From Mycobacterium sp. Root265 (GTDB lineage Bacteria; Actinomycetota; Actinomycetes; Mycobacteriales; Mycobacteriaceae), in the NCBI RefSeq assembly GCF_001428895.1, contig NZ_LMJA01000002.1, forward strand, positions 1-64,000: a stretch of 64,000 bases of DNA, written 5' to 3'. The notes under the pieces are model-generated. The model was not told the DNA's origin and searched no databases. It saw only the letters and a program-made list of their open reading frames with translations. Made by a program: the position numbers and the translations under genes. How positions within the stretch are numbered: position 1 is the first letter of the stretch; each line of letters begins with the position of its first letter. Below, piece after piece: positions 9,634 through 58,295 of this stretch.

Positions 9634-11181
9634 GTGAATGTGAGTACGGTGCGCGGCGGGAGAATATTCCAGCGCCGCAAATTAATGCGCGCGGTTCTGG
9701 GCGCCATTGTCTCCGGCCTCTGTGTCGTCGCTCTCATCGCCACTCCGACCTCCCACCGGCACCGCCAGGTGTTCACGGACAACTTCGCCGCACTCAGCAA
9801 CTCAGCCACCACATTGGGGTTCGCTGATTCGCAGGTCTTCTTCTACAACGACGCGGAAGTGGCCGCGACGGTGCAGCGCTGGGTCCAGAACAATATCCGC
9901 ACGGTGCGCATCGGAATTCCGTGGGCGGGTGTCGAGGCGCTCCAAGGCCGGTATGACTGGTCCAAGGCCGACCGGATTGTCGCTGCCGCGGCGGCGGCAA
10001 ACATCTCGATCATCTGCGCCATCACCTCCAGCCCGTGGTGGGCCAAGGCGTGGAATGCCCTTCCGCCGCACGGCCGTCCCGCCTCGCCCGACCAATACGG
10101 GAAATTCACCGCGAAGGTCGCGCAACGGTATAAGGGCAAAATTGCGGCATATGAGATCTGGAACGAACCCAACGGCGTTTTCGGATATCACCCGGCACCG
10201 GATCCCTCTGGATATACCGATCTGTTGAAGGCCGCCTATCCGCGGATCAAAGCCGTCGATCCGGCGGCCATTGTCGTCGGCGGAGTGCTGGGGTCGGGAA
10301 AGAGTTGGGGCTCGTGGACGATCGATCCCGTCACGTTCCTCACCCGTATGTACGCCGCGGGCGCGCAACCGTTCTTCGACGCGTTGTCTTATCACCCGTA
10401 CAGCTACAGCATGAAGTTCTCGCAAGGCATGCTGCAGGCGGATTCGCCGGTGGATCAACTGGTCCGCATGCGCAGAGTGATGCTGGAGCGCGGCGATGCG
10501 CCGAAGAAGATCTGGGTGTCGGAGTACGGCGCCCCCACCAATCGGGTGAATGAGGCGACCCAGGCCGCCTTCATCGCGGACATGATCAGCACCTGGCAGG
10601 AACTCCCGTACGCGGGCCCACTGATGCTCTACACCACACGAGATCTCAACAGCTCCAGCGGTTCCGACGAGGACCGATTCGGCCTGTACCGGTCGGACTG
10701 GGTGCCCAAAGCCGCGCAGCAGGTAGTGGCTGCCCCGCCCGGAGTCGGCGCGGTCTATCAGCGGTTCGCCGCGTTCACCGACCCCAGTTTCGGGGAGGTG
10801 CTCAGTCCCGTCTTCACGGGACCGTTCAAAGTCCCGACGCAGTTGCGCGCTCTCGGCACGCTGTGGGAGGTGTCGCCGGGCACGATTGTGGCGTCCCCGA
10901 CGCCGGTCGCCGATCTGGTGCGTAAGAAGAAGATCCTGCCGAAAACGTCATTCAGGGACGGCTATCAGGATTTCGGTGGTTGGCAGCCGTTCCGGGTCTG
11001 GTATTCGCCGGAGACCGGCGTGCAGACGGCCAGTGTGGAGTTCGCCAAGAAATGGGTCCCGGAACTGGGGTTGGCGACGTCGTCGGAGAAGTGGGTCAAC
11101 GGCGCGACCCGGGTGACGTTTCAGCGGGGCGTGATGACGTGGCGACCGTTCGTGGGCGTCAAGGTGTATCGCTCGCAGTAA
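9634..11181 (+). CDS. secreted or membrane-anchored glycoside hydrolase (clan GH-A, GH5/GH39-like)
   Basis: About 515 residues. A basic N-terminus and a hydrophobic stretch (about residues 18-38) give a signal anchor. The body is a (beta/alpha)8 hydrolase: Y-E-I-W-N-E-P-N carries the acid/base Glu178, and W-V-S-E-Y-G-A-P the nucleophile Glu297, the retaining pair of clan GH-A. The last 60 residues (L-G-L-A-T-S-S-E, then F-Q-R-G-V-M-T-W) resemble a degenerate LGFP wall-binding repeat. Likely role: trimming a wall or environmental beta-glycan. GAGAAGGG (9622-9629) supports GTG 9634 or GTG 9640; an earlier ATG at 9544 is less likely. Confidence 0.82.
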   Translation: MNVSTVRGGRIFQRRKLMRAVLGAIVSGLCVVALIATPTSHRHRQVFTDNFAALSNSATTLGFADSQVFFYNDAEVAATVQRWVQNNIRTVRIGIPWAGVEALQGRYDWSKADRIVAAAAAANISIICAITSSPWWAKAWNALPPHGRPASPDQYGKFTAKVAQRYKGKIAAYEIWNEPNGVFGYHPAPDPSGYTDLLKAAYPRIKAVDPAAIVVGGVLGSGKSWGSWTIDPVTFLTRMYAAGAQPFFDALSYHPYSYSMKFSQGMLQADSPVDQLVRMRRVMLERGDAPKKIWVSEYGAPTNRVNEATQAAFIADMISTWQELPYAGPLMLYTTRDLNSSSGSDEDRFGLYRSDWVPKAAQQVVAAPPGVGAVYQRFAAFTDPSFGEVLSPVFTGPFKVPTQLRALGTLWEVSPGTIVASPTPVADLVRKKKILPKTSFRDGYQDFGGWQPFRVWYSPETGVQTASVEFAKKWVPELGLATSSEKWVNGATRVTFQRGVMTWRPFVGVKVYRSQ

Positions 11182-11224: not shown

Positions 11225-11693
11225 TTCCTTACTGCGTGCCTGGCTGCGCCGGCGCGTGCTGCTGCCGCGCGGTGAACCTCGGTTCGGCAACGGGACATTC
11301 TTTGCGCAAACGTGATGTTTAGTTTGCTACATAGTGGGTGTCTCTGATCTTGATAACGAAATGGCAAACAAGATAAGAAAGCTGGCGACGAGCTGAGGTC
11401 GCAGCGGCCCGCTATTGGCGCGGCCAGGGACGAGCCAGCTGATCGAGCTTTCTCCGGCGGCCGTGCGCGGCCGGAAACGCACAGCTAGACGGCATGAATG
11501 ACGCTGAGTGGCAGCAGCCTCCGGCTGCGTTCCCACCGTGGACACGACCGCGGTGAAGAGCGTGGGCAGCTCGTTAATTGTCGCCCGCGTCACGAGAAAT
11601 TTCAGAAAATTTGCGGCCAGGTCTAGTTTGCCAGGCAACCGTTGTGTTAACTTTTCGACGTTGGTTGGGGAATTTGCTGAAAGGGAGATCAAC
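11225..11693 (+). other. long, AT-richer leader region of repeat-protein gene 1
   Basis: About 470 bases with no credible gene. It is visibly richer in A/T than the surrounding coding DNA, especially 11310-11380 and 11575-11690. The last 21 bases hold the motif TTTGCTGAAAGGGAGA (11673-11688), which recurs in front of the two paralogous genes. An open frame runs through 11508-11693 into the gene, but it has no ribosome site and would bury the signal peptide. Confidence 0.5.
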
Positions 11694-12167
11694 ATGTTGG
11701 GACGTCAGGGAACCTCCGTCAGGATGATCGCTGCGACGGCAATCGCCGGGGGCGGAATCGCACTGGCCATGGGAGCGGCCACCGCAGGTGCGGGAGCGGC
11801 ATACGCCGAGACAGGGCAAACCGCCTCGAGTTCGAGCTCCAGCTCGAGCAGTTCACCGCTGCAGCGGATCGGCAGGTTCGGCAGCAATCTGCAGCGCAAC
11901 CTCGGAACCGTCGGCAGTAATCTGCAGCGGAACCTGGGTCAGGTCGGCAGCGATGCCCAGCAGGGCCTCGGCTCTGTCGGTTCGAACCTGCTCATCAACG
12001 GTGGGACGTCGGCCAGTAACGCGCAACAGGGCCTGGGTCAGGTCGGCAGCGACGCGCAGCAGGGACTTGGCCAGGTTGGCACCGACGTACTGGTCAACGG
12101 CGGCACCGCGGCCAGTAACGCGCAGCAGAACCTCGGCGAGTTCGTCGGCAACATCCTGGGCGACTAG
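11694..12167 (+). CDS. secreted hendecad-repeat protein 1
   Basis: 157 residues, family not recognised. The N-terminus is a Sec signal peptide ending A-Y-A at Ala38, followed by a linker with ten consecutive serines (45-54). Residues 63-150 are eight uninterrupted 11-residue repeats with consensus [GA]-[ST]-[ND]-x-x-x-x-[LG]-G-x-[VSAF], for example GSNLQRNLGQV and GSDAQQGLGQV. Seven residues end the protein. Hydrophobic residues fall at repeat positions 4, 8 and 11 (spacing 4-3-4), the hendecad pattern of right-handed coiled coils and amphipathic 11/3 helices, but the high Gly content is unusual for those. AAAGGGAGA precedes the ATG. Gene-specific leader and terminator suggest a single-gene unit. 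Confidence 0.85.
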   Translation: MLGRQGTSVRMIAATAIAGGGIALAMGAATAGAGAAYAETGQTASSSSSSSSSSPLQRIGRFGSNLQRNLGTVGSNLQRNLGQVGSDAQQGLGSVGSNLLINGGTSASNAQQGLGQVGSDAQQGLGQVGTDVLVNGGTAASNAQQNLGEFVGNILGD

Positions 12168-12186
12168 TCCGAATTCGATTGAGGCC

Positions 12187-12214
12187 GGGCAGCGGGTGAG
12201 TTCTCCCGCTGCCC
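12187..12214 (+). terminator. terminator of repeat-protein gene 1
   Basis: A perfect 10-base-pair GC-rich stem, GGGCAGCGGG (12187-12196) with CCCGCTGCCC (12205-12214), and an 8-base loop lie 20 bases after the stop codon. There is no U-tract, as is common for mycobacterial terminators. Confidence 0.7.
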
Positions 12215-12669
12215 GCCGTCGTGTCTGGGCCAGATGGCGTCCAACGATTGATCTGAGCATTTGCTGATCTCAATCCGGAAGTGGGCGCTTGTGCCGGTGC
12301 TATCCCGGAAAATCTTTGCGAACGAGAACTTTTGCCAAGATTGCAGCAAAACTGTCTCCGGGCCAACTCGGCAGTCGGCATCCGCTCATCGTCGAATGAC
12401 GCTGGCGTTGCGAGCTGACCTTCATAATCGCAGTTCTATGGCTAGCCGTCTCGCGTTTCAGCTGTTGCTGGCGTAGTTCAATTGATTGCCGGCGAGCTGT
12501 GAGCTTTGTGCCTTGCGATCTTGCACGGTGTATTGCTGAAGTTCGAAGTCCGAGTCAGGCAAAGGAAAATCCACGCGGTTACGGTTTCGTGAAATTTTGT
12601 CCCGGGTATGCGGCGGGTGCGTCGGTTGGCGCAGAAGTGGTTCGCACCTATTTGCTGAAGGAGATAGTC
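12215..12669 (+). other. long leader region of repeat-protein gene 2
   Basis: About 455 bases without a supportable gene, again of lower GC than the neighbours. It ends in TTTGCTGAAGGAGA (12651-12664), matching the leader motif of genes 1 and 3. An in-frame extension of gene 2 back to 12499 has no ribosome site and is rejected as coding. Confidence 0.5.
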
Positions 12670-13161
12670 ATGGATCGCAATCGTCTGGATATGTCGACGA
12701 CTCTGAAGGGCGCGGCGCTTGCCGGGGCCGCCGCTGCGGTGTCCCTCGGAATCGCGGTGGCGGGCGCCGGAACCGCCGCTGCGGACACCGACGACAGCGG
12801 CAGCACCGCGGCGCGGCAGAGCGCCACGAGTAGCAGCTCCAACCCCAGGGACTTCGGAAGCAACCTGGTGAGAAACCTCGGCAAGTTCGGCAACAATCTG
12901 GTCCAGAACACGGGCAAGGTCGGGAGTAACGCTCAGCAGCAGCTCGGGAAGGCCGGGACCAATGCGTTGATCAACAGTGGGACGGTCGCCAATAATCTGG
13001 TGGACAACGTCAGCGAGACCGGTGGCAACGTATTCGGGAATGCCAACGAGGCCGGCAGCAATCTGGTGGGCAATGCCGGTGAGGCCGGGTCCAATCTGGT
13101 CGGTAATGCCGGTGAGGCCGGCGGCAACCTTGTTGACAACATCGGTGACCTGTTCGACTGA
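12670..13161 (+). CDS. secreted hendecad-repeat protein 2
   Basis: 163 residues, paralogue of the preceding gene. The signal peptide ends T-A-A-A at Ala38, and a short Asp/Ser/Thr-rich linker follows. Residues 63-161 are nine exact 11-residue repeats (for example GSNLVRNLGKF and GTNALINSGTV), including two identical consecutive copies of GSNLVGNAGEA at the DNA-similar stretch about 13053-13118. Only two residues follow the last repeat. Compared with protein 1 the repeats are richer in Asn and Val and turn acidic (G-E-A) towards the C-terminus. No cysteine, no lipobox and no membrane segment is present beyond the signal peptide. The ATG has GAAGGAGA seven bases upstream. Confidence 0.85.
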   Translation: MDRNRLDMSTTLKGAALAGAAAAVSLGIAVAGAGTAAADTDDSGSTAARQSATSSSSNPRDFGSNLVRNLGKFGNNLVQNTGKVGSNAQQQLGKAGTNALINSGTVANNLVDNVSETGGNVFGNANEAGSNLVGNAGEAGSNLVGNAGEAGGNLVDNIGDLFD

Positions 13162-13172
13162 TTCAGCTCACT

Positions 13173-13210
13173 CGCGAAAGGGCAGCGGCATCCGCCGCTG
13201 CCCTTTCGCG
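13173..13210 (+). terminator. strong terminator of repeat-protein gene 2
   Basis: A perfect 17-base-pair stem (13173-13189 with 13194-13210) closes on a 4-base loop, 11 bases after the stop codon. The stem begins CGCGAAAGG, so the descending arm contains CCTTTCGCG. Confidence 0.85.
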
Positions 13211-13648
13211 TGGCCCCTCGGACCTTGCTGCTTTCGCTCGCCCGTCGACCTGCCTGTACCTGCTTGGACGGGCGCGGCCCTGTGTCTCCGATGTGGTTTG
13301 CTGTCGGGTCCGGACGAGGTGCCGTGGCGTAATTGCCGCAGGCGTCACGGCGATCCGGCCGGTAGCGCCAGCGGCCCGCAGCGGTGCTCAAGTGCCTGGT
13401 AACCGCTTTATTATCGACATCGTAAATACTTGCTGTGTTTCATGATCACGGTATTGCCAGTTCAGGGGCCTACCGGTCGGAGCTGCTCAGGATTGATAGC
13501 CAGCCCGCGGGGGAGCTCCCAGCAAAGCGAAATCTGGACAAAACCGTGATCATTCGTGCGTGATTCGTCCCCTTCGGTATGATCTGCGACACACTTTTTG
13601 TGTTAGCTTCAGCTTGTTCGTTTGGTATTTGCTGGAGGGAGACGAATC
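13211..13648 (+). other. long leader region of repeat-protein gene 3
   Basis: About 440 bases without a gene. It contains an 11-base inverted repeat, ATGATCACGGT (13442-13452) and ACCGTGATCAT (13543-13553), with the intervening 90 bases available to form a large stem-loop. It ends in the shared leader motif TTTGCTGGAGGGAGA (13628-13642). Confidence 0.5.
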
Positions 13649-14098
13649 ATGGATCGCAACGGGTCGGGGAAGCCCGAAATGATCAAGGGGATGGTGCTGG
13701 CAGGCGCCACCGCAACAATGTGTCTCGGAGTGGCCCTTGCGGGCGCCGGGACGGCGTCGGCCGACACGAGTGCCGCCGATGCGCATGTCGCCGCGCAGCA
13801 GCGCAACGCCGGAGTAAGTGCCAACGCCATCACACCCGAGGACGTTGGCGAGTTCGGCGACAACCTCGTGCGTAACCTCGGCCGCTTCGGAAGCAATCTG
13901 CAGCGCAACGCCGGGCAGGTGGGCAGCGACGTGCAACAGGGTCTCGGCCGCGTCGGGACTGATCTGCTGATCAACGGCGGCACCTTCACCAGTAATCTGG
14001 TGCAGAACGCCAACCGCGCCGGTAGTGACCTAGGTCGCAACGCCGCCACTGCAGGCCAGGACCTGGTCCGCAATATCGGTAACCTGTTTCGCCGTTGA
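13649..14098 (+). CDS. secreted hendecad-repeat protein 3
   Basis: 149 residues, third paralogue. The signal peptide ends A-S-A at Ala38, the same position as in the other two. After a 31-residue linker, residues 70-146 form seven exact 11-residue repeats (GDNLVRNLGRF, GSNLQRNAGQV, GSDVQQGLGRV and so on); three residues follow. The third and fourth repeats align closely with those of protein 1 (…GSDxQQGLGxV then GTDLLINGGTF), showing common descent of whole arrays rather than independent repeat growth. The repeats here carry more Arg, giving a basic protein. GGAGGGAGA precedes the ATG. Function is unknown; extracytoplasmic location is the only firm inference. Confidence 0.85.
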   Translation: MDRNGSGKPEMIKGMVLAGATATMCLGVALAGAGTASADTSAADAHVAAQQRNAGVSANAITPEDVGEFGDNLVRNLGRFGSNLQRNAGQVGSDVQQGLGRVGTDLLINGGTFTSNLVQNANRAGSDLGRNAATAGQDLVRNIGNLFRR

Positions 14099-14103
14099 CG
14101 GAC

Positions 14104-14143
14104 GCCGGTGGGGCGCCTGCCTTTGCGCGGCCGCCTCACCGGC
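14104..14143 (+). terminator. terminator of repeat-protein gene 3
   Basis: A 12-base-pair stem with one G-T pair (14104-14115 with 14132-14143) lies five bases after the stop codon; the loop is 16 bases. GC-rich, no U-tract. Confidence 0.6.
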
Positions 14144-14159
14144 CATCGGTGTCCACTTC

Positions 14160-14590
14160 AGCTGCCGAGAAGTTCGTCGATGACGTCGACCAATCCGCCT
14201 CATGCTCTCGATGTGGAGCACCTCGGACCAGAGTCGCAGGATGAAGCGTTCCTGTTCGCCACGAGGAGGTTCGAACTCCGTCCGGCCTACCCGGCAGTGC
14301 CGTCGGGTCGATCTTGCCGCGGTCTCCCTGTGGCAGTGCCCTGAGCAACTTGCTGGCGGCCGGCACAATGTACGCGGGCCAGTTTCGGTGCAGACGGCTG
14401 CGAGCTGTCGGCAGCGCGGCGCGACGTTGCCGTCATCGCCGAGGCCGAAGTGGTCGTTGAGCAGTTAAGCGTCGTCGTGCCGCAACTCATTCGGGTGAAG
14501 GACCGCCTTGGGCGTGCAGCTGGATTCCGATGTGAATTGGATGCTCGTGACGTTTTCGCTGTCGGCATCCGCGCTCAGGTCTGCGGTGAC
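14160..14590 (-). pseudogene. relic of an acyl-AMP ligase / NRPS adenylation-carrier gene
   Basis: Read leftward, pieces of one adenylating enzyme survive in three different frames. Bases 14501-14542 encode Q-F-T-S-E-S-S-C-T-P-K-A-V, matching core motif A3 (F-T-S-G-S-T-G-x-P-K-G-V) with damage. After an in-frame stop, D-H-F-G-L-G-D-D-G resembles the next stretch of fatty-acyl-AMP ligases. About 180 bases later, 14292-14365 encodes Y-I-V-P-A-A-S-K-L-L-R-A-L-P and G-K-I-D-P-T-A-L-P, the A10 lysine motif. Bases 14201-14272 encode P-P-R-G-E-Q-E-R-F-I-L-R-L-W-S-E-V-L, the start of a carrier domain. Intact spacing between A3 and A10 would be near 1 kb, so most of the gene is deleted. No intact frame remains. 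Confidence 0.6.
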
Positions 14591-14995: not shown

Positions 14996-15295
14996 TCAGC
15001 GTGAGCAGTCCAGCGACACCGTGATGGTGCGCTTCACCACGATGGGCACGATCGCGTTGCGGTCGTTGAACCCGTCCACGTTGACCAGACGCCTCTGCTC
15101 CTGCACGTGGCCGATATCGGTGACCTCGCATTCATCGAGCGGGGCGCTACCCAGGCGATTGACGCGGACGTCGAACCCCTGGGCCTCCAACTGATCGATG
15201 GTGAGGTTGGCGGACTCGGCGTTGGCCGGCGCTGCGGTGGCGGCCAACACGCCGAGGGCGGCGGAGACGATGACAACGGAGAATGCGATGCGCAT
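14996..15295 (-). CDS. small secreted two-cysteine protein (copy 1)
   Basis: A 99-residue protein with a Sec signal peptide (cleavage after A-N-A, about residue 24). The mature domain is about 75 residues and has two cysteines likely to form a disulfide: C-E-V-T-D-I and the C-terminal V-S-L-D-C-S-R. A paralogue lies at 29601-29918; both share L-E-A-Q-G-[FY]-x-V-x-V, R-[LI]-G-S-A-P-L-x-x-C-x-V-T and S-L-D-C-x-R. AGGAAGGAA precedes the ATG. Function unknown; the family appears mycobacterial. It is divergent from the ABC importer. Confidence 0.82.
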   Translation of the reverse strand: MRIAFSVVIVSAALGVLAATAAPANAESANLTIDQLEAQGFDVRVNRLGSAPLDECEVTDIGHVQEQRRLVNVDGFNDRNAIVPIVVKRTITVSLDCSR

Positions 15296-15456
15296 GACCG
15301 TTCCTTCCTGGTGGTGATCGGTTTCGATGGGTCGATCGTGCTGCCCGGGACGGTGACGCCGCTTGGAGCTGACGTGGAGATTGTCTGGAGATCCCCCGCA
15401 GGGCGCGGCGCAGCGATAGCGTGAATCCGTCACGGCACATCGGACGGGAGACCAAC

Positions 15457-16935
15457 ATGCGAGCCGAAATCTCGTCGGGCTGTAGGCCTGAACCACCCGC
15501 TAGGCCCGGGCGGCGGCTCGCAGTACTGCTGGTGGGGCTGCTCGTCGGGCTGTTCGGCACCGCAATGCTGGCCCCGGCGACCGCCGCGGCGGACGGCGAG
15601 ACCTACACCATTGCCACCGACACGACCTTCGCGCCGTTCGAGTTCCAGGACGCCGGCGGCAATTTCGTGGGTATCGACATGGATCTGATCCGGGCGATCG
15701 GCGAGGACCAGAACTTCAACGTCGACATCAAGCCGCTCGGTTTCGACGCAGCGCTCCAGGCGGTGCAAGCCAACCAGGTCGACGGTGTCATCGCAGGCAT
15801 GTCGATCACCGACGAGCGCCGCAAGGTGTTCGACTTCTCCGAACCCTATTTCGAGTCCGGAATCCAGATGGCGGTGCTCGAGGACAACGAGGACATCACG
15901 TCCTACGAGGACCTTCGCGGCAAGCGGGTCTCGGTCAAGAACGGCACCCAGGGCGCAGATTTCGCGGACTCGATCAAAGATCAGTACGGCTTCGAAGTGG
16001 TCTCTTTCGCCGACTCGTCCACCATGTTCGACGAGGTGCGAACCGGCAACTCGGTGGCGGCCTTCGAGGACTACCCTGTGTTGCTCTACGCCATACAGCA
16101 GGGTAATGGCTTCAAAACCGTGACGCCGAAAGAAGATCCGACCGGGTACGGGTTTGCCGTCAACAAGGGGCAGAACGCAGAACTGCTGCAGAAGTTCAAC
16201 GCCGGGCTGGAGAACCTCAAGGACTCCGGCCGCTACGACGAGATCCTGTCGACCTACCTGGGTGAGGGTGCGGCCACCAGCGACAGTTCGTTCTTCGGGC
16301 TGATCAAGAGCACCGCACCGATGCTGCTCGCCGGCCTGAAGATGACGATCATCCTGACCGTGTCATCGATCTTCTTCGCGCTCATTCTGGGCGTGATCTT
16401 CGGCTTGGCCCGGGTGTCCCGGTCGATCTGGTTGCGCGCCATCGGCACCACGTTCGTCGACATCTTCCGCGGTACACCGCTGATCGTGCAGGCGTTCTTC
16501 ATCTACTTCGGCATTCCCACAGCGCTGGGCTTCCAGATGTCGGCGGTGACAGCAGGCATCATCACGCTCTCGCTCAACGCCGGCGCCTACATGACAGAGA
16601 TCGTCCGCGGCGGCATCCTCGCGGTCGACAAGGGGCAGATGGAGGCCGCCCGCAGCCTCGGCATCGGATACCTGCCGACGATGCGTAAAGTGATTCTGCC
16701 GCAGGCCATTCGCACCATGATCCCGTCCTATATCAACCAGTTCGTCATCACGTTGAAGGACACCTCGATCCTGTCGGTGCTCGGTATCGCCGAGCTCACG
16801 CAGAGCGGCCGGATCATCATCGCGGGCAACTACAAGGCCTTCGAGATGTGGCTGATCGTGGGCATTATCTACTTCATCGTCATCATGGCGCTGACCAAAC
16901 TCTCGGACCGACTGGAAAGGCGGCTCGTGAAATGA
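15457..16935 (+). CDS. fused substrate-binding protein/permease of a polar amino-acid ABC importer
   Basis: A 492-residue fusion. Residues about 20-46 form a signal/anchor segment. About 48-270 are a family-3 periplasmic binding domain ([11 protein letters not shown], then F-D-F-S-E-P-Y). About 285-492 are a His/Glu/Gln/Arg-type permease with the coupling motif E-A-A-R-S-L-G-I-G near 398. Such fusions (GlnP type) carry their own receptor, two per dimeric transporter. Glutamine, glutamate or a related polar amino acid is the likely substrate. The ATG at 15457 is preferred over GTG 15421 because GGGAG ends six bases before it. The stop overlaps the ATPase start (ATGA). Confidence 0.9.
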
Positions 16936-56213: not shown

Positions 56214-57077
56214 ATGACTCAACCACCACCGCCGGAAGAGTTCGGGCCACCGCAGGAGCGCATCCCGGCGCATGGCAATTACCCGCCGCCGCCCGGGAAC
56301 TACCCGCCGCCGCAAGGCAATTACCCGCCGCCCGGGTATCCCGTCCCGGGGACACCCGCATTCGGTGCGCCCGCCTACCGTGTCGGCGAAGCGGTCTCGT
56401 GGGCGTGGAACAAGTTCAGCGCGCACTCCCCGGCAATCCTCATTCCGACGCTGGTGTTGGGGGTGATCTATGGCGTGACCCAGTTCAGCATCCAGGCCGT
56501 GTCCAATGGCTTCGGTGCGGTGGGGAATTCGTCCATCGATGCCGGCTACGACGCGAGCTTCTCGTTCGATCTGACCGGTGTCGTGGTGTCCGTCCTCGGG
56601 GTCATCGCCACCGCGGTCGTGGTCGCGGTGGCCCAATCCGCCTACCTCAACGGCATGATCGACATCGCCAACGGGCAACCGGTGGAGATACGGTCGTTCT
56701 TCAAGCCCCGCAACGTCATCGACGTCGTCATCGCGTCGGTCCTGTCCAGCATCATCATCGGTCTCGGCGCCCTGTTGTGTATCGTGCCCGGCGTCATTGC
56801 GACGATCATGTTGCTGTTCACCACGGTTGCCATTCTGGACCGCAACATTTCGGGCACCGACGGTCTGGGAACGAGCTTTGCCATCGCCAAGGCCAATTTC
56901 GGCCCGGTGGCGCTGACCTGGCTGGCCACCGTCGGCATCACGCTCCTGGGGCTGGTGGCGTGCGTGGTCGGTCTCGTCGTCGCCTACCCGGTCAGCGCGC
57001 TGGTCACCGTGTTCGCCTACCGCACGCTCACCGGCGGATACCTGGCGCCGCCGACGCCGGACCCGCGGCCGGAATGA
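56214..57077 (+). CDS. Pro-rich multi-pass membrane protein, paralogue 1
   Basis: 287 residues. The N-terminal 55 are Pro-rich (G-N-Y-P-P-P repeats). Then V-G-E-A-V-S-W-A-W-N-K-F precedes about six hydrophobic segments with Y-L-N-G-M-I-D-I-A-N-G and F-F-K-P-R, the pattern of the mycobacterial proline/glycine-rich transmembrane proteins such as Rv2560. Function unknown. It shares a 20-base leader and start (AGAAGGTGACATGACTCAAC) with the next gene, showing tandem duplication. Confidence 0.78.
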   Translation: MTQPPPPEEFGPPQERIPAHGNYPPPPGNYPPPQGNYPPPGYPVPGTPAFGAPAYRVGEAVSWAWNKFSAHSPAILIPTLVLGVIYGVTQFSIQAVSNGFGAVGNSSIDAGYDASFSFDLTGVVVSVLGVIATAVVVAVAQSAYLNGMIDIANGQPVEIRSFFKPRNVIDVVIASVLSSIIIGLGALLCIVPGVIATIMLLFTTVAILDRNISGTDGLGTSFAIAKANFGPVALTWLATVGITLLGLVACVVGLVVAYPVSALVTVFAYRTLTGGYLAPPTPDPRPE

Positions 57078-57236: not shown

Positions 57237-58295
57237 ATGACTCAACCGCCTCCTCCGCCGGGCAGCACACCGCCCGGCGGATTCCCGCCGCCTCCCGAGA
57301 ACGTCCCGCCTCAGGGCGGCTACCCGCCGCCCGGCAACTACCCGCCGCCGCCGGGGAACTACCCGCCCCCGCAGGGCAACTACCCGCCGCCACAAGGGGA
57401 CTACCCCCCGCCGCCCCAGGGCAACTACCCGCCGCCTCCGCAAGGTGGCTACCCACCGCCCCCGCAGGGTGGTTACCCACCGCCGCCTCCGCCGCAGGGC
57501 GGCTACGCGCCCCCACCGCCGCAGGGCGGCTACCCGCCGCCCGGTGGCTATCCACCGGCGGGGTACCCCGGTGGGCCCGGCGCCGGCCCGGCGTTCGCCG
57601 TCGGTGACGCGTTCTCCTGGGCATGGAACAAGTTCAGCAAGAACGCGGCTGCGCTGATCATCCCGACGCTGGTGTACGCGCTCATCGTGGGCATCGTCGG
57701 CGGCATCGTCTACGGCCTGGCTTTCGCGCTGGCGCCCAGTGGCGTGACCACCTATGACTCCTACGACTCGGGCTTCAGCTACGAGTACAGCGCCGGATTC
57801 GGGGTGGCCAGCTTCATCGTGCTCGCCCTCGGCGGCCTGATCCTGCTGGTGCTGCTGGCGGCGATCTCGTCGGCGTACATCAGCGGCATCCTGGATATCG
57901 CCAACGGTGTTCCGGTCACCGCGGGCTCGTTCTTCAAGCCGCGGCTCATCGGCCCCGTCATCATCGCCACCGTGCTGGTGGGCATCGCGACCGCGATCGG
58001 CAACGCGCTGTGCTACCTGCCGGGTCTGATCGTGTCGATCTTCGCGTTCTTCACCACCGTCGCGCTGCTGGACCGCAATCTCTCGGCCATCGACGCGATC
58101 AAGACGAGCATCGACATCACCAAGAACAACTTCGTCCAGGTGCTGATCGCCTGGCTGCTGTTCGCGGTGATCATCTTCGTCGGATCGCTGCTGTGCGGTA
58201 TCGGCATCATCGTGGCCGCACCGGTCGCGATCCTGTTCGAGGTTTACGCCTTCCGGCGCCTGACCGGCGGACAGGTTGCGCCGCTGACGCCGTAG
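57237..58295 (+). CDS. Pro-rich multi-pass membrane protein, paralogue 2
   Basis: 352 residues. It differs from its neighbour by a longer Pro-rich tail of about 115 residues with roughly twelve G-[GN]-Y-P-P-P-P-Q units. The shared membrane core starts V-G-D-A-F-S-W-A-W-N-K-F, with Y-I-S-G-I-L-D-I-A-N-G and F-F-K-P-R, and L-D-R-N-L-S-A-I-D-A-I. About six transmembrane segments. Pro-rich arms of this sort often bind partners at the cell pole or division site; here that is speculation. GAGAAGGTGAC precedes the ATG. Confidence 0.78.
   Translation: MTQPPPPPGSTPPGGFPPPPENVPPQGGYPPPGNYPPPPGNYPPPQGNYPPPQGDYPPPPQGNYPPPPQGGYPPPPQGGYPPPPPPQGGYAPPPPQGGYPPPGGYPPAGYPGGPGAGPAFAVGDAFSWAWNKFSKNAAALIIPTLVYALIVGIVGGIVYGLAFALAPSGVTTYDSYDSGFSYEYSAGFGVASFIVLALGGLILLVLLAAISSAYISGILDIANGVPVTAGSFFKPRLIGPVIIATVLVGIATAIGNALCYLPGLIVSIFAFFTTVALLDRNLSAIDAIKTSIDITKNNFVQVLIAWLLFAVIIFVGSLLCGIGIIVAAPVAILFEVYAFRRLTGGQVAPLTP

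Follow-up and report, generated by a model that had tools for sequence, protein, structure and literature searches.

Perilipin 4 (Plin4), the exchangeable apolipoproteins and alpha-synuclein adsorb to lipid through amphipathic helices. We analyzed a 64,000-nucleotide stretch of DNA (the window) from the environmental-type mycobacterium Mycobacterium sp. Root265 (contig NZ_LMJA01000002.1, positions 1 to 64,000; source genome of 6.67 Mb), which holds three tandem genes, A, B, and C, each encoding a protein built of consecutive 11-residue repeats (11-mers). The repeat family to which they belong is unnamed, has no curated Pfam or NCBIfam model, and is real, conserved, and mycobacterial in the samples searched. 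With a probability of roughly 0.4, we read the arrays as glycine-rich, weakly amphipathic 3-11 helices that adsorb to lipid, a manner of working in which the family may tentatively be likened to Plin4 and the apolipoproteins without belonging to either. This reading ranks first, and a curli-like beta-solenoid comes next as a real rival.

Plin4 shares with the window family contiguous 11-mers without insertions or deletions, richness in Thr, Gly, and Val, few aromatic residues, and a low hydrophobic moment (PMC5889406). The 11-mers of Plin4 are further grouped in 33-mers, and a higher-order period of 33 residues is likewise seen in gene A. Plin4 is, however, a cytosolic human protein with a helix region of 968 residues and a predicted C-terminal four-helix bundle (PMC5889406), whereas the window family is bacterial, with a signal peptide and 77–99 repeat residues (relatives have up to 18 repeats), and no perilipin or PAT Pfam match was obtained in the three window proteins or 22 relatives. 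The apolipoproteins (PF01442) resemble the family in being secreted and in an 11/22-residue amphipathic periodicity, which in the window family is a likeness of pattern only. They differ in their proline-broken helices, as in ApoA-I (PMC5889406), since only 2 of 313 family repeats contain Pro, and the PF01442 cut-off of 90 bits was not reached, with no match for the window proteins and 31.3 bits for the best relative. Alpha-synuclein also carries 11-mer repeats and forms a 3-11 helix on lipid, while HBHA, a mycobacterial surface protein termed apolipoprotein-like and tied to lipid inclusions, is alike by description alone (PMC5889406 and PMC6176652, respectively). No alpha-synuclein match was found among the solved structures searched with protein A or with a 22-protein family profile (A5). 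The alpha-synuclein motif is KTKEGV, which is absent from the family consensus. By the profile tests run, the window family lies outside the apolipoprotein, perilipin, LEA_4, and curli families.

Parsing of the repeats bore out the three tandem open reading frames (ORFs) with eight, nine, and seven contiguous 11-mers that a sequence-only reading had described (Table 1). That reading had called the repeats exact, which holds for their length and not for their sequence. The arrays are followed by tails of 7, 2, and 3 residues in A, B, and C, within the 2–7 residues that it had given. AxA-like cleavage sites ending at Ala38 were read by eye in all three proteins, in agreement with the proposed signal peptides, and A36 and A38 are invariant in an alignment of 13 family proteins; A, B, and C are small proteins that, by sequence, carry a Sec-type signal peptide and are probably secreted. 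Identity at a lag of 11 residues is 0.44, 0.50, and 0.38 in A, B, and C, a level that 0 of 20,000 shuffles of each protein reached at any lag of 2–33. In gene A, identity at lag 33 (0.61) exceeds that at lag 11, and Tandem Repeats Finder detected a 99-nt unit, a 3 × 11 higher-order duplication. The family consensus is G-[ST]-[ND]-L-x-x-[NQ]-L-G-x-[AV]. Large hydrophobic residues occupy position 4 in 18, position 8 in 13, and position 11 in 15 of the 24 window repeats, so that the proposed hendecad spacing holds; they also occur at position 5 (14 repeats) and position 6 (4 repeats).

Phase conservation was assessed in 313 repeats from 40 non-redundant proteins, a sample of relatives that are not independent of each other and from which the extraction filters left out known members (e.g., B and C of locus L016, C of L017, a gene-A type of L028, and the first ORF of L033). 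In 270 of 273 cases, neighboring repeats abut exactly; two of the three breaks are in L033 and one is in L034. Complete arrays contain 6–18 repeats, and three of the 40 arrays, cut by locus ends, show 5. Comparison of the M. bacteremicum arrays (18, 14, and 7 repeats) with those of A, B, and C (8, 9, and 7) illustrates the variation in copy number; certain orthologues differ in total length by exactly 11 residues, and other differences include linker changes. The ratio of nonsynonymous to synonymous substitution (dN/dS) in the repeat regions is 0.03–0.31 in 13 comparisons with orthologues, supporting purifying selection on the arrays. These ratios, together with a third-position GC content (GC3) of 0.76–0.79, indicate that A, B, and C are real genes. 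The earlier observation of a variable repeat number in a strictly kept frame is upheld. The relatives keep the 11-residue period apart from the three breaks and so did not refute that reading.

Searches of A, B, and C against Pfam, NCBIfam, and Protein Data Bank sequences gave nothing significant (the best solved-structure match of protein A has an E value of 0.42), consistent with the absence of a recognized family in the sequence-only reading, and no description of the 11-mer family was found among the open-licence PubMed Central papers listed. No match was obtained by tblastn of gene C against plasmids or of gene A against phages. The locus occurs in Mycolicibacterium sp. P9-22, M. frederiksbergense LB 501T, Mycobacterium sp. 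MBM, and M. bacteremicum, with genes A and C in all four and gene B in P9-22 and M. bacteremicum; the stretches fetched for L017 and L018 showed no gene B. Orthologues of gene A are located in L016–L019 and genome G034, those of gene B in L016 and L019 (M. bacteremicum), and those of gene C in L016–L019 and genomes G034, G218, and G393. A 13-protein profile matches 53 of 397 Mycobacterium genomes at E 1e-3, false hits included, while the broader A5 matches 43 of them at 1e-5, two of which (G012 and G108) were judged false. In a sample of the order (348 genomes from 79 genera), four genomes match, three from Mycobacterium plus G577. The family appears confined to the genus at the profile sensitivity used and in the genomes sampled, and the profile search envisaged earlier bears out a lineage-restricted family that keeps its 11-residue period while the number of repeats varies. 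Its members share a signal peptide, a linker, contiguous G-[ST]-[ND] 11-mers, and a short C-terminal tail; G429 was counted as a member on its E value (2.6e-48). Divergent subfamilies keep this layout from the signal peptide to the tail, with GTAGTNAISQT as an example of their 11-mers and GIGNLFNRG of their tails, and several also carry a QNVVTxxGNKxTP stretch. The C-terminal cap has the consensus IGxLF.

Analysis of the residue pattern indicated that the amphipathic 11/3 helix, one of the options in the sequence-only reading, describes it best in harmonics and charge placement. On an 11/3 helix projection, the mean direction of the large hydrophobic residues is 57° and that of the charged residues is 260°. 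Charged residues (D, E, K, R) fall at positions 2, 3, 6, 7, and 10 in 250 of 250 cases and never at positions 1, 4, 5, 8, 9, or 11. A helix is favored because it gathers the hydrophobic residues into one arc, with all 250 charges on the opposite side. The alpha harmonic (98.2°) is the strongest of the five for an 11-residue period, at 0.305 versus 0.191 for the beta-like harmonic (163.6°) in the 313 pooled repeats, and it is strongest in 18 of 22 family members. Mean 18-residue hydrophobic moments are 0.32 for A, 0.36 for B (stretch 43–159, which takes in some linker), and 0.38 for C. The published values, computed with a different program, are 0.257 (Plin4), 0.30 (alpha-synuclein), and 0.35 (Plin3; Table 1 of PMC5889406). 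The window arrays have a hydrophobic fraction of 0.28–0.33 (0.35 in Plin4; PMC5889406), with 0.01–0.04 aromatic residues and 0–0.01 proline. In moment and composition, they are near Plin3, Plin4, and alpha-synuclein. The AlphaFold2 (AF2) model of protein C contains helices at residues 63–108 and 113–147, at low confidence (predicted local distance difference test score [pLDDT] of 45.0, predicted template modeling score [pTM] of 0.20), and A5 finds apolipoprotein E (1ya9) as its best match among solved structures, weak at E 0.007.

Several observations weigh against a lipid-adsorbing helix. Column permutations match the pooled 98.2° harmonic in 6,469 of 200,000 trials (3.2%), which makes its support modest, and reach that of the single arrays in 83, 95, and 70 of 2,000 trials for A, B, and C; four of the 22 members (L019 A, L026, L029, and L033) have a 163.6° harmonic above the 98.2° one. 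Gly is present at position 9 of 97% and at position 1 of 76% of the repeats, forming a stripe at a mean of 129° beside the hydrophobic arc, and Gly at these positions is poor for a helix. The AF2 model of the M. bacteremicum gene-A orthologue, with 18 repeats, is a beta-solenoid, likewise at low confidence (pLDDT 56.2, pTM 0.54). AF2 is therefore undecided between a helix for protein C and a better-scored solenoid for the longer gene-A relative, and the confident common fold anticipated by the sequence-only reading did not emerge. Matches to the Apolipoprotein model in 5 of 22 relatives score 20–31 bits (E 2e-7 to 6e-4) against the cut-off of 90; the model also gives sub-cut-off matches in 12 of the 14 control genomes, and its two sub-threshold matches in the source genome sit at other loci. 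The relatives' matches and that of A5 to apolipoprotein E agree with a helix, but since the former are far below the cut-off and the model is non-specific in the control genomes, they carry little weight. The 22 members also give sub-threshold matches to GvpQ (2 of 22) and ZorA (2 of 22). All matches to characterized repeat families (Apolipoprotein in 5 and CsgB in 1 of 22) stay below the curated cut-offs, and here too the sequence-only reading was not refuted.

If the arrays are lipid-adsorbing helices, each would be largely unfolded in water, judging from its high glycine and asparagine content, and on a hydrophobic surface would form a long amphipathic 3-11 helix with three turns per 11 residues. 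The target surface would most likely be the outer leaflet of the mycobacterial outer membrane or lipids released from it, which the protein would coat through numerous weak contacts. Repeat number would set the length of lipid contact, which would account for the gain and loss of whole 11-mers with the phase kept. The helix, the lipid binding, the location, and a role in biofilm are all matters that we infer.

A beta-solenoid, in which each 11-mer supplies one strand and each coil takes about 22 residues, stacking into surface fibres like the functional amyloids curli and FapC, is the closest competitor, though we consider it somewhat unlikely. It draws on the L019 model, which has one main strand per repeat, spanning positions 3–8 or 3–7 (mapped by hand in part of the array), and whose Foldseek neighbors, among the best 50 of 79 matches, include FapC, CsgA, and ice-binding beta-helices, with none of the 79 at E ≤0.001. 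Against this low-confidence model stands the tendency of AF2, reported in PMC11795689, to model random perfect repeats as beta-solenoids. A single member of the 22 (L041) matches the CsgB model with 24.9 bits (E 1.4e-5) versus a cut-off of 165 bits, and the beta-like harmonic is the stronger in the four members named above. Like CsgA and CsgB, the family would be secreted and has Gly/Asn/Gln-rich repeats, and a Gly/Asn/Gln/Ser-rich composition suits amyloids. The window proteins, however, reach the cut-off of neither the curlin repeat (PF07012) nor the CsgB equivalog, and the source genome has no match to CsgG or the curlin repeat (control searches were positive in 4 and 1 of 14 genomes, respectively). 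The family also differs from curli in that charges would point into the core: position 6, which in a solenoid would share a strand face with Leu4 and Leu8, carries a charge in 77 of 313 repeats, and in 9 of the 24 window repeats. In the modeled L019 protein this position is mostly Gln, Ile, or Val, which makes a solenoid more plausible for proteins of the gene-A type than for those of the B or C type. In addition, single 11-mers are gained or lost between orthologues, which would shift a 22-residue coil.

The helices might also pack on each other via the glycine stripe, building a surface layer, bundle, or filament with no lipid adsorption. The position of the stripe on the flank of the hydrophobic arc, the IGxLF cap, and the two or three paralogues at several loci, which are possible partners, speak for such packing; the AF2 model of protein C shows no packed fold, and the best sequence matches of protein A and A5 yield no convincing solved structure, leaving this arrangement improbable. 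LEA_4 proteins (group 3 LEA, PF02987) likewise have an 11-mer motif, with a bacterial example studied in PMC8096337, and the likely disorder of the family and its Ser or Thr at position 2 in 78% of repeats, regularly spaced by 11 residues, would suit an extracellular LEA- or antifreeze-type stress protein shielding the envelope during drying or freezing. Nevertheless, the family carries a signal peptide, neither the three window proteins nor 22 relatives match LEA_4, and the window arrays are not Lys/Glu/Ala-rich, with a charged fraction of just 0.08–0.17 versus the regular Lys, Asp/Glu, and Ala described for LEA_4 (PMC8096337), so that we regard such a function as quite unlikely. The DNA-level tandem repeats of 33 and 99 nt and the variable copy number could come from low-complexity secreted repeats drifting by replication slippage without conserved structure. 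This explanation is largely refuted by the dN/dS values, and with phase held even between divergent subfamilies and strong constraint on several positions, we give it hardly any credence.

Several profile matches were rejected as members. G577 (L052, another genus of the order) contains three GTAGTDLRDDA-type 11-mers at about 1501–1608 within a 454-aa ORF, probably a case of convergence. The strand opposite the G011 match codes for charged RGAELAEVARE-type hendecads; G040 was rejected upon reading its ORFs and presumably reflects the same artefact, the G108 match (L110) is an RGAELAEVARE-type protein as at G011, and the G012 match (L115) lacks such an ORF. Long charged ORFs of this type are found in L010, L110, and L116, and their opposite strand mimics the family in searches. 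A cousin subfamily with aromatic 11-mers (e.g., AGTYYNHQLGH) and a similar signal peptide is present in nine genomes (L081, L082, L103, L105, L107–L109, L113, and L114). Further cousins in L104, L106, and L112 have 11-mers (e.g., GTVGTNLNQFA) followed by a two-cysteine tail, possibly a disulfide cap.

Table 1. Features of the repeat locus in the window
Feature	Position	Strand	Description
PslG-like glycoside hydrolase (GH5/GH39 type)	9682..11181	+	515 bp upstream of gene A; Pfam Cellulase
TGTTAACTT, extended -10-like element	11645..11653	+	starts 49 bp before gene A; position similar throughout the family
Gene A	11694..12167	+	157 aa; signal peptide 1-38, Ser-rich linker 39-62, eight 11-mers 63-150, tail VGNILGD
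Strong terminator-like hairpin after gene A	12183..12217	+	12165-12235 folds at -39 kcal/mol, z -4.7; no T-run
SigF-like promoter GTTT-N16-GGGTAT	12584..12609	+	before gene B, which has no TGnTAACTT element there
Gene B	12670..13161	+	163 aa; signal peptide 1-38, linker, nine 11-mers 63-161, tail FD
Strong terminator-like hairpin after gene B	13174..13209	+	13159-13220 folds at -40.1 kcal/mol, z -8.1; no T-run
TGTTAGCTT, extended -10-like element as before gene A	13601..13609	+	starts 48 bp before gene C
Gene C	13649..14098	+	149 aa; signal peptide 1-38, linker, seven 11-mers 70-146, tail FRR
Weaker hairpin after gene C	14100..14154	+	14096-14160, z -3.3; 1/200 shuffles fold as well; no T-run

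Analysis of the neighboring genes revealed a linkage to the PslG-like hydrolase, whose N-terminus is hydrophobic by eye and whose best solved relatives are PslG (E 5e-16). A same-strand repeat gene follows the hydrolase in 17 of 17 genomes with an orthologue at least 63% identical to that of the window, and the gap between the hydrolase and repeat-gene matches is 446–548 bp in these genomes, the window's own included. No listed repeat gene adjoins the listed hydrolases at ≤59% identity. The hydrolase adjoins repeats in 9 of 20 fetched loci, which were chosen for holding repeat or repeat-like genes; the remaining loci have other window neighbors (glnHPQ, DUF3060, luciferase-like) in common, or none. 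Several loci hold two or three paralogues. This synteny, which in part reflects descent, suggests a shared role of the hydrolase and the repeat genes, and the linkage would point to the cell surface or the biofilm matrix. An ORF at window positions 14996–15496 (−) has no Pfam match and slightly overlaps the glnHP ORF; similar translations occur near the locus in several relatives. Elsewhere in the window, Pro/Gly/Tyr-rich tandem repeats with 18–57-nt units at 57306–57541 and 56265–56332 fall inside ORFs 57237–58295 and 56214–57077, which give sub-cut-off UPF0259 matches.

Comparison of the leaders of divergent members revealed a common layout, with TGnTAACTT, presumably an extended -10 element, near −49, TTTGCTG right before the ribosome-binding site, and GCAAA farther upstream; positions 11640–11693 and 13600–13648 are examples in the window. 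Among 40 distinct leaders, which are not independent and include one (L032) taken from a doubtful start, TGnTA lies within −75 to −35 in 28, mostly at −48 to −51, versus 17% expected per leader from shuffles. TTGCTG within the last 40 bp (34 of 40) and GCAAA at −190 to −90 (33 of 40) are raw counts. In several leaders GCAAA forms part of CAGCAAA, the reverse complement of TTTGCTG. These common elements suggest one regulator for the family genes. GTTT-N16-GGGTAT, which resembles the SigF consensus, is present in all three gene B leaders examined, from three species. A hairpin follows each of the three genes (Table 1), and A, B, and C are therefore probably each on their own transcript.

A phase-conserved family in divergent members of one genus, without a Pfam or NCBIfam model, allows the question of what a strict 11-residue period selects for to be put cleanly, and it is a natural test case for the repeat bias reported for AF2 (PMC11795689). 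If the arrays form a solenoid, they would represent a new kind of amyloid-like repeat, distinct from those of curli and Fap. A fuller proposal, which we hold as doubtful, is that mycobacteria export their own perilipin- or apolipoprotein-like coat, in which lineage-specific, glycine-rich 3-11 helices, independently invented, would cover the mycolic-acid membrane or shed lipids with a reach set by repeat number. Such a lipid coat would be a bacterial, extracellular analogue of the perilipins and apolipoproteins, set on an envelope very rich in lipid, and would have a bearing on how environmental mycobacteria clump and form biofilm and on the hydrophobicity of their surface.

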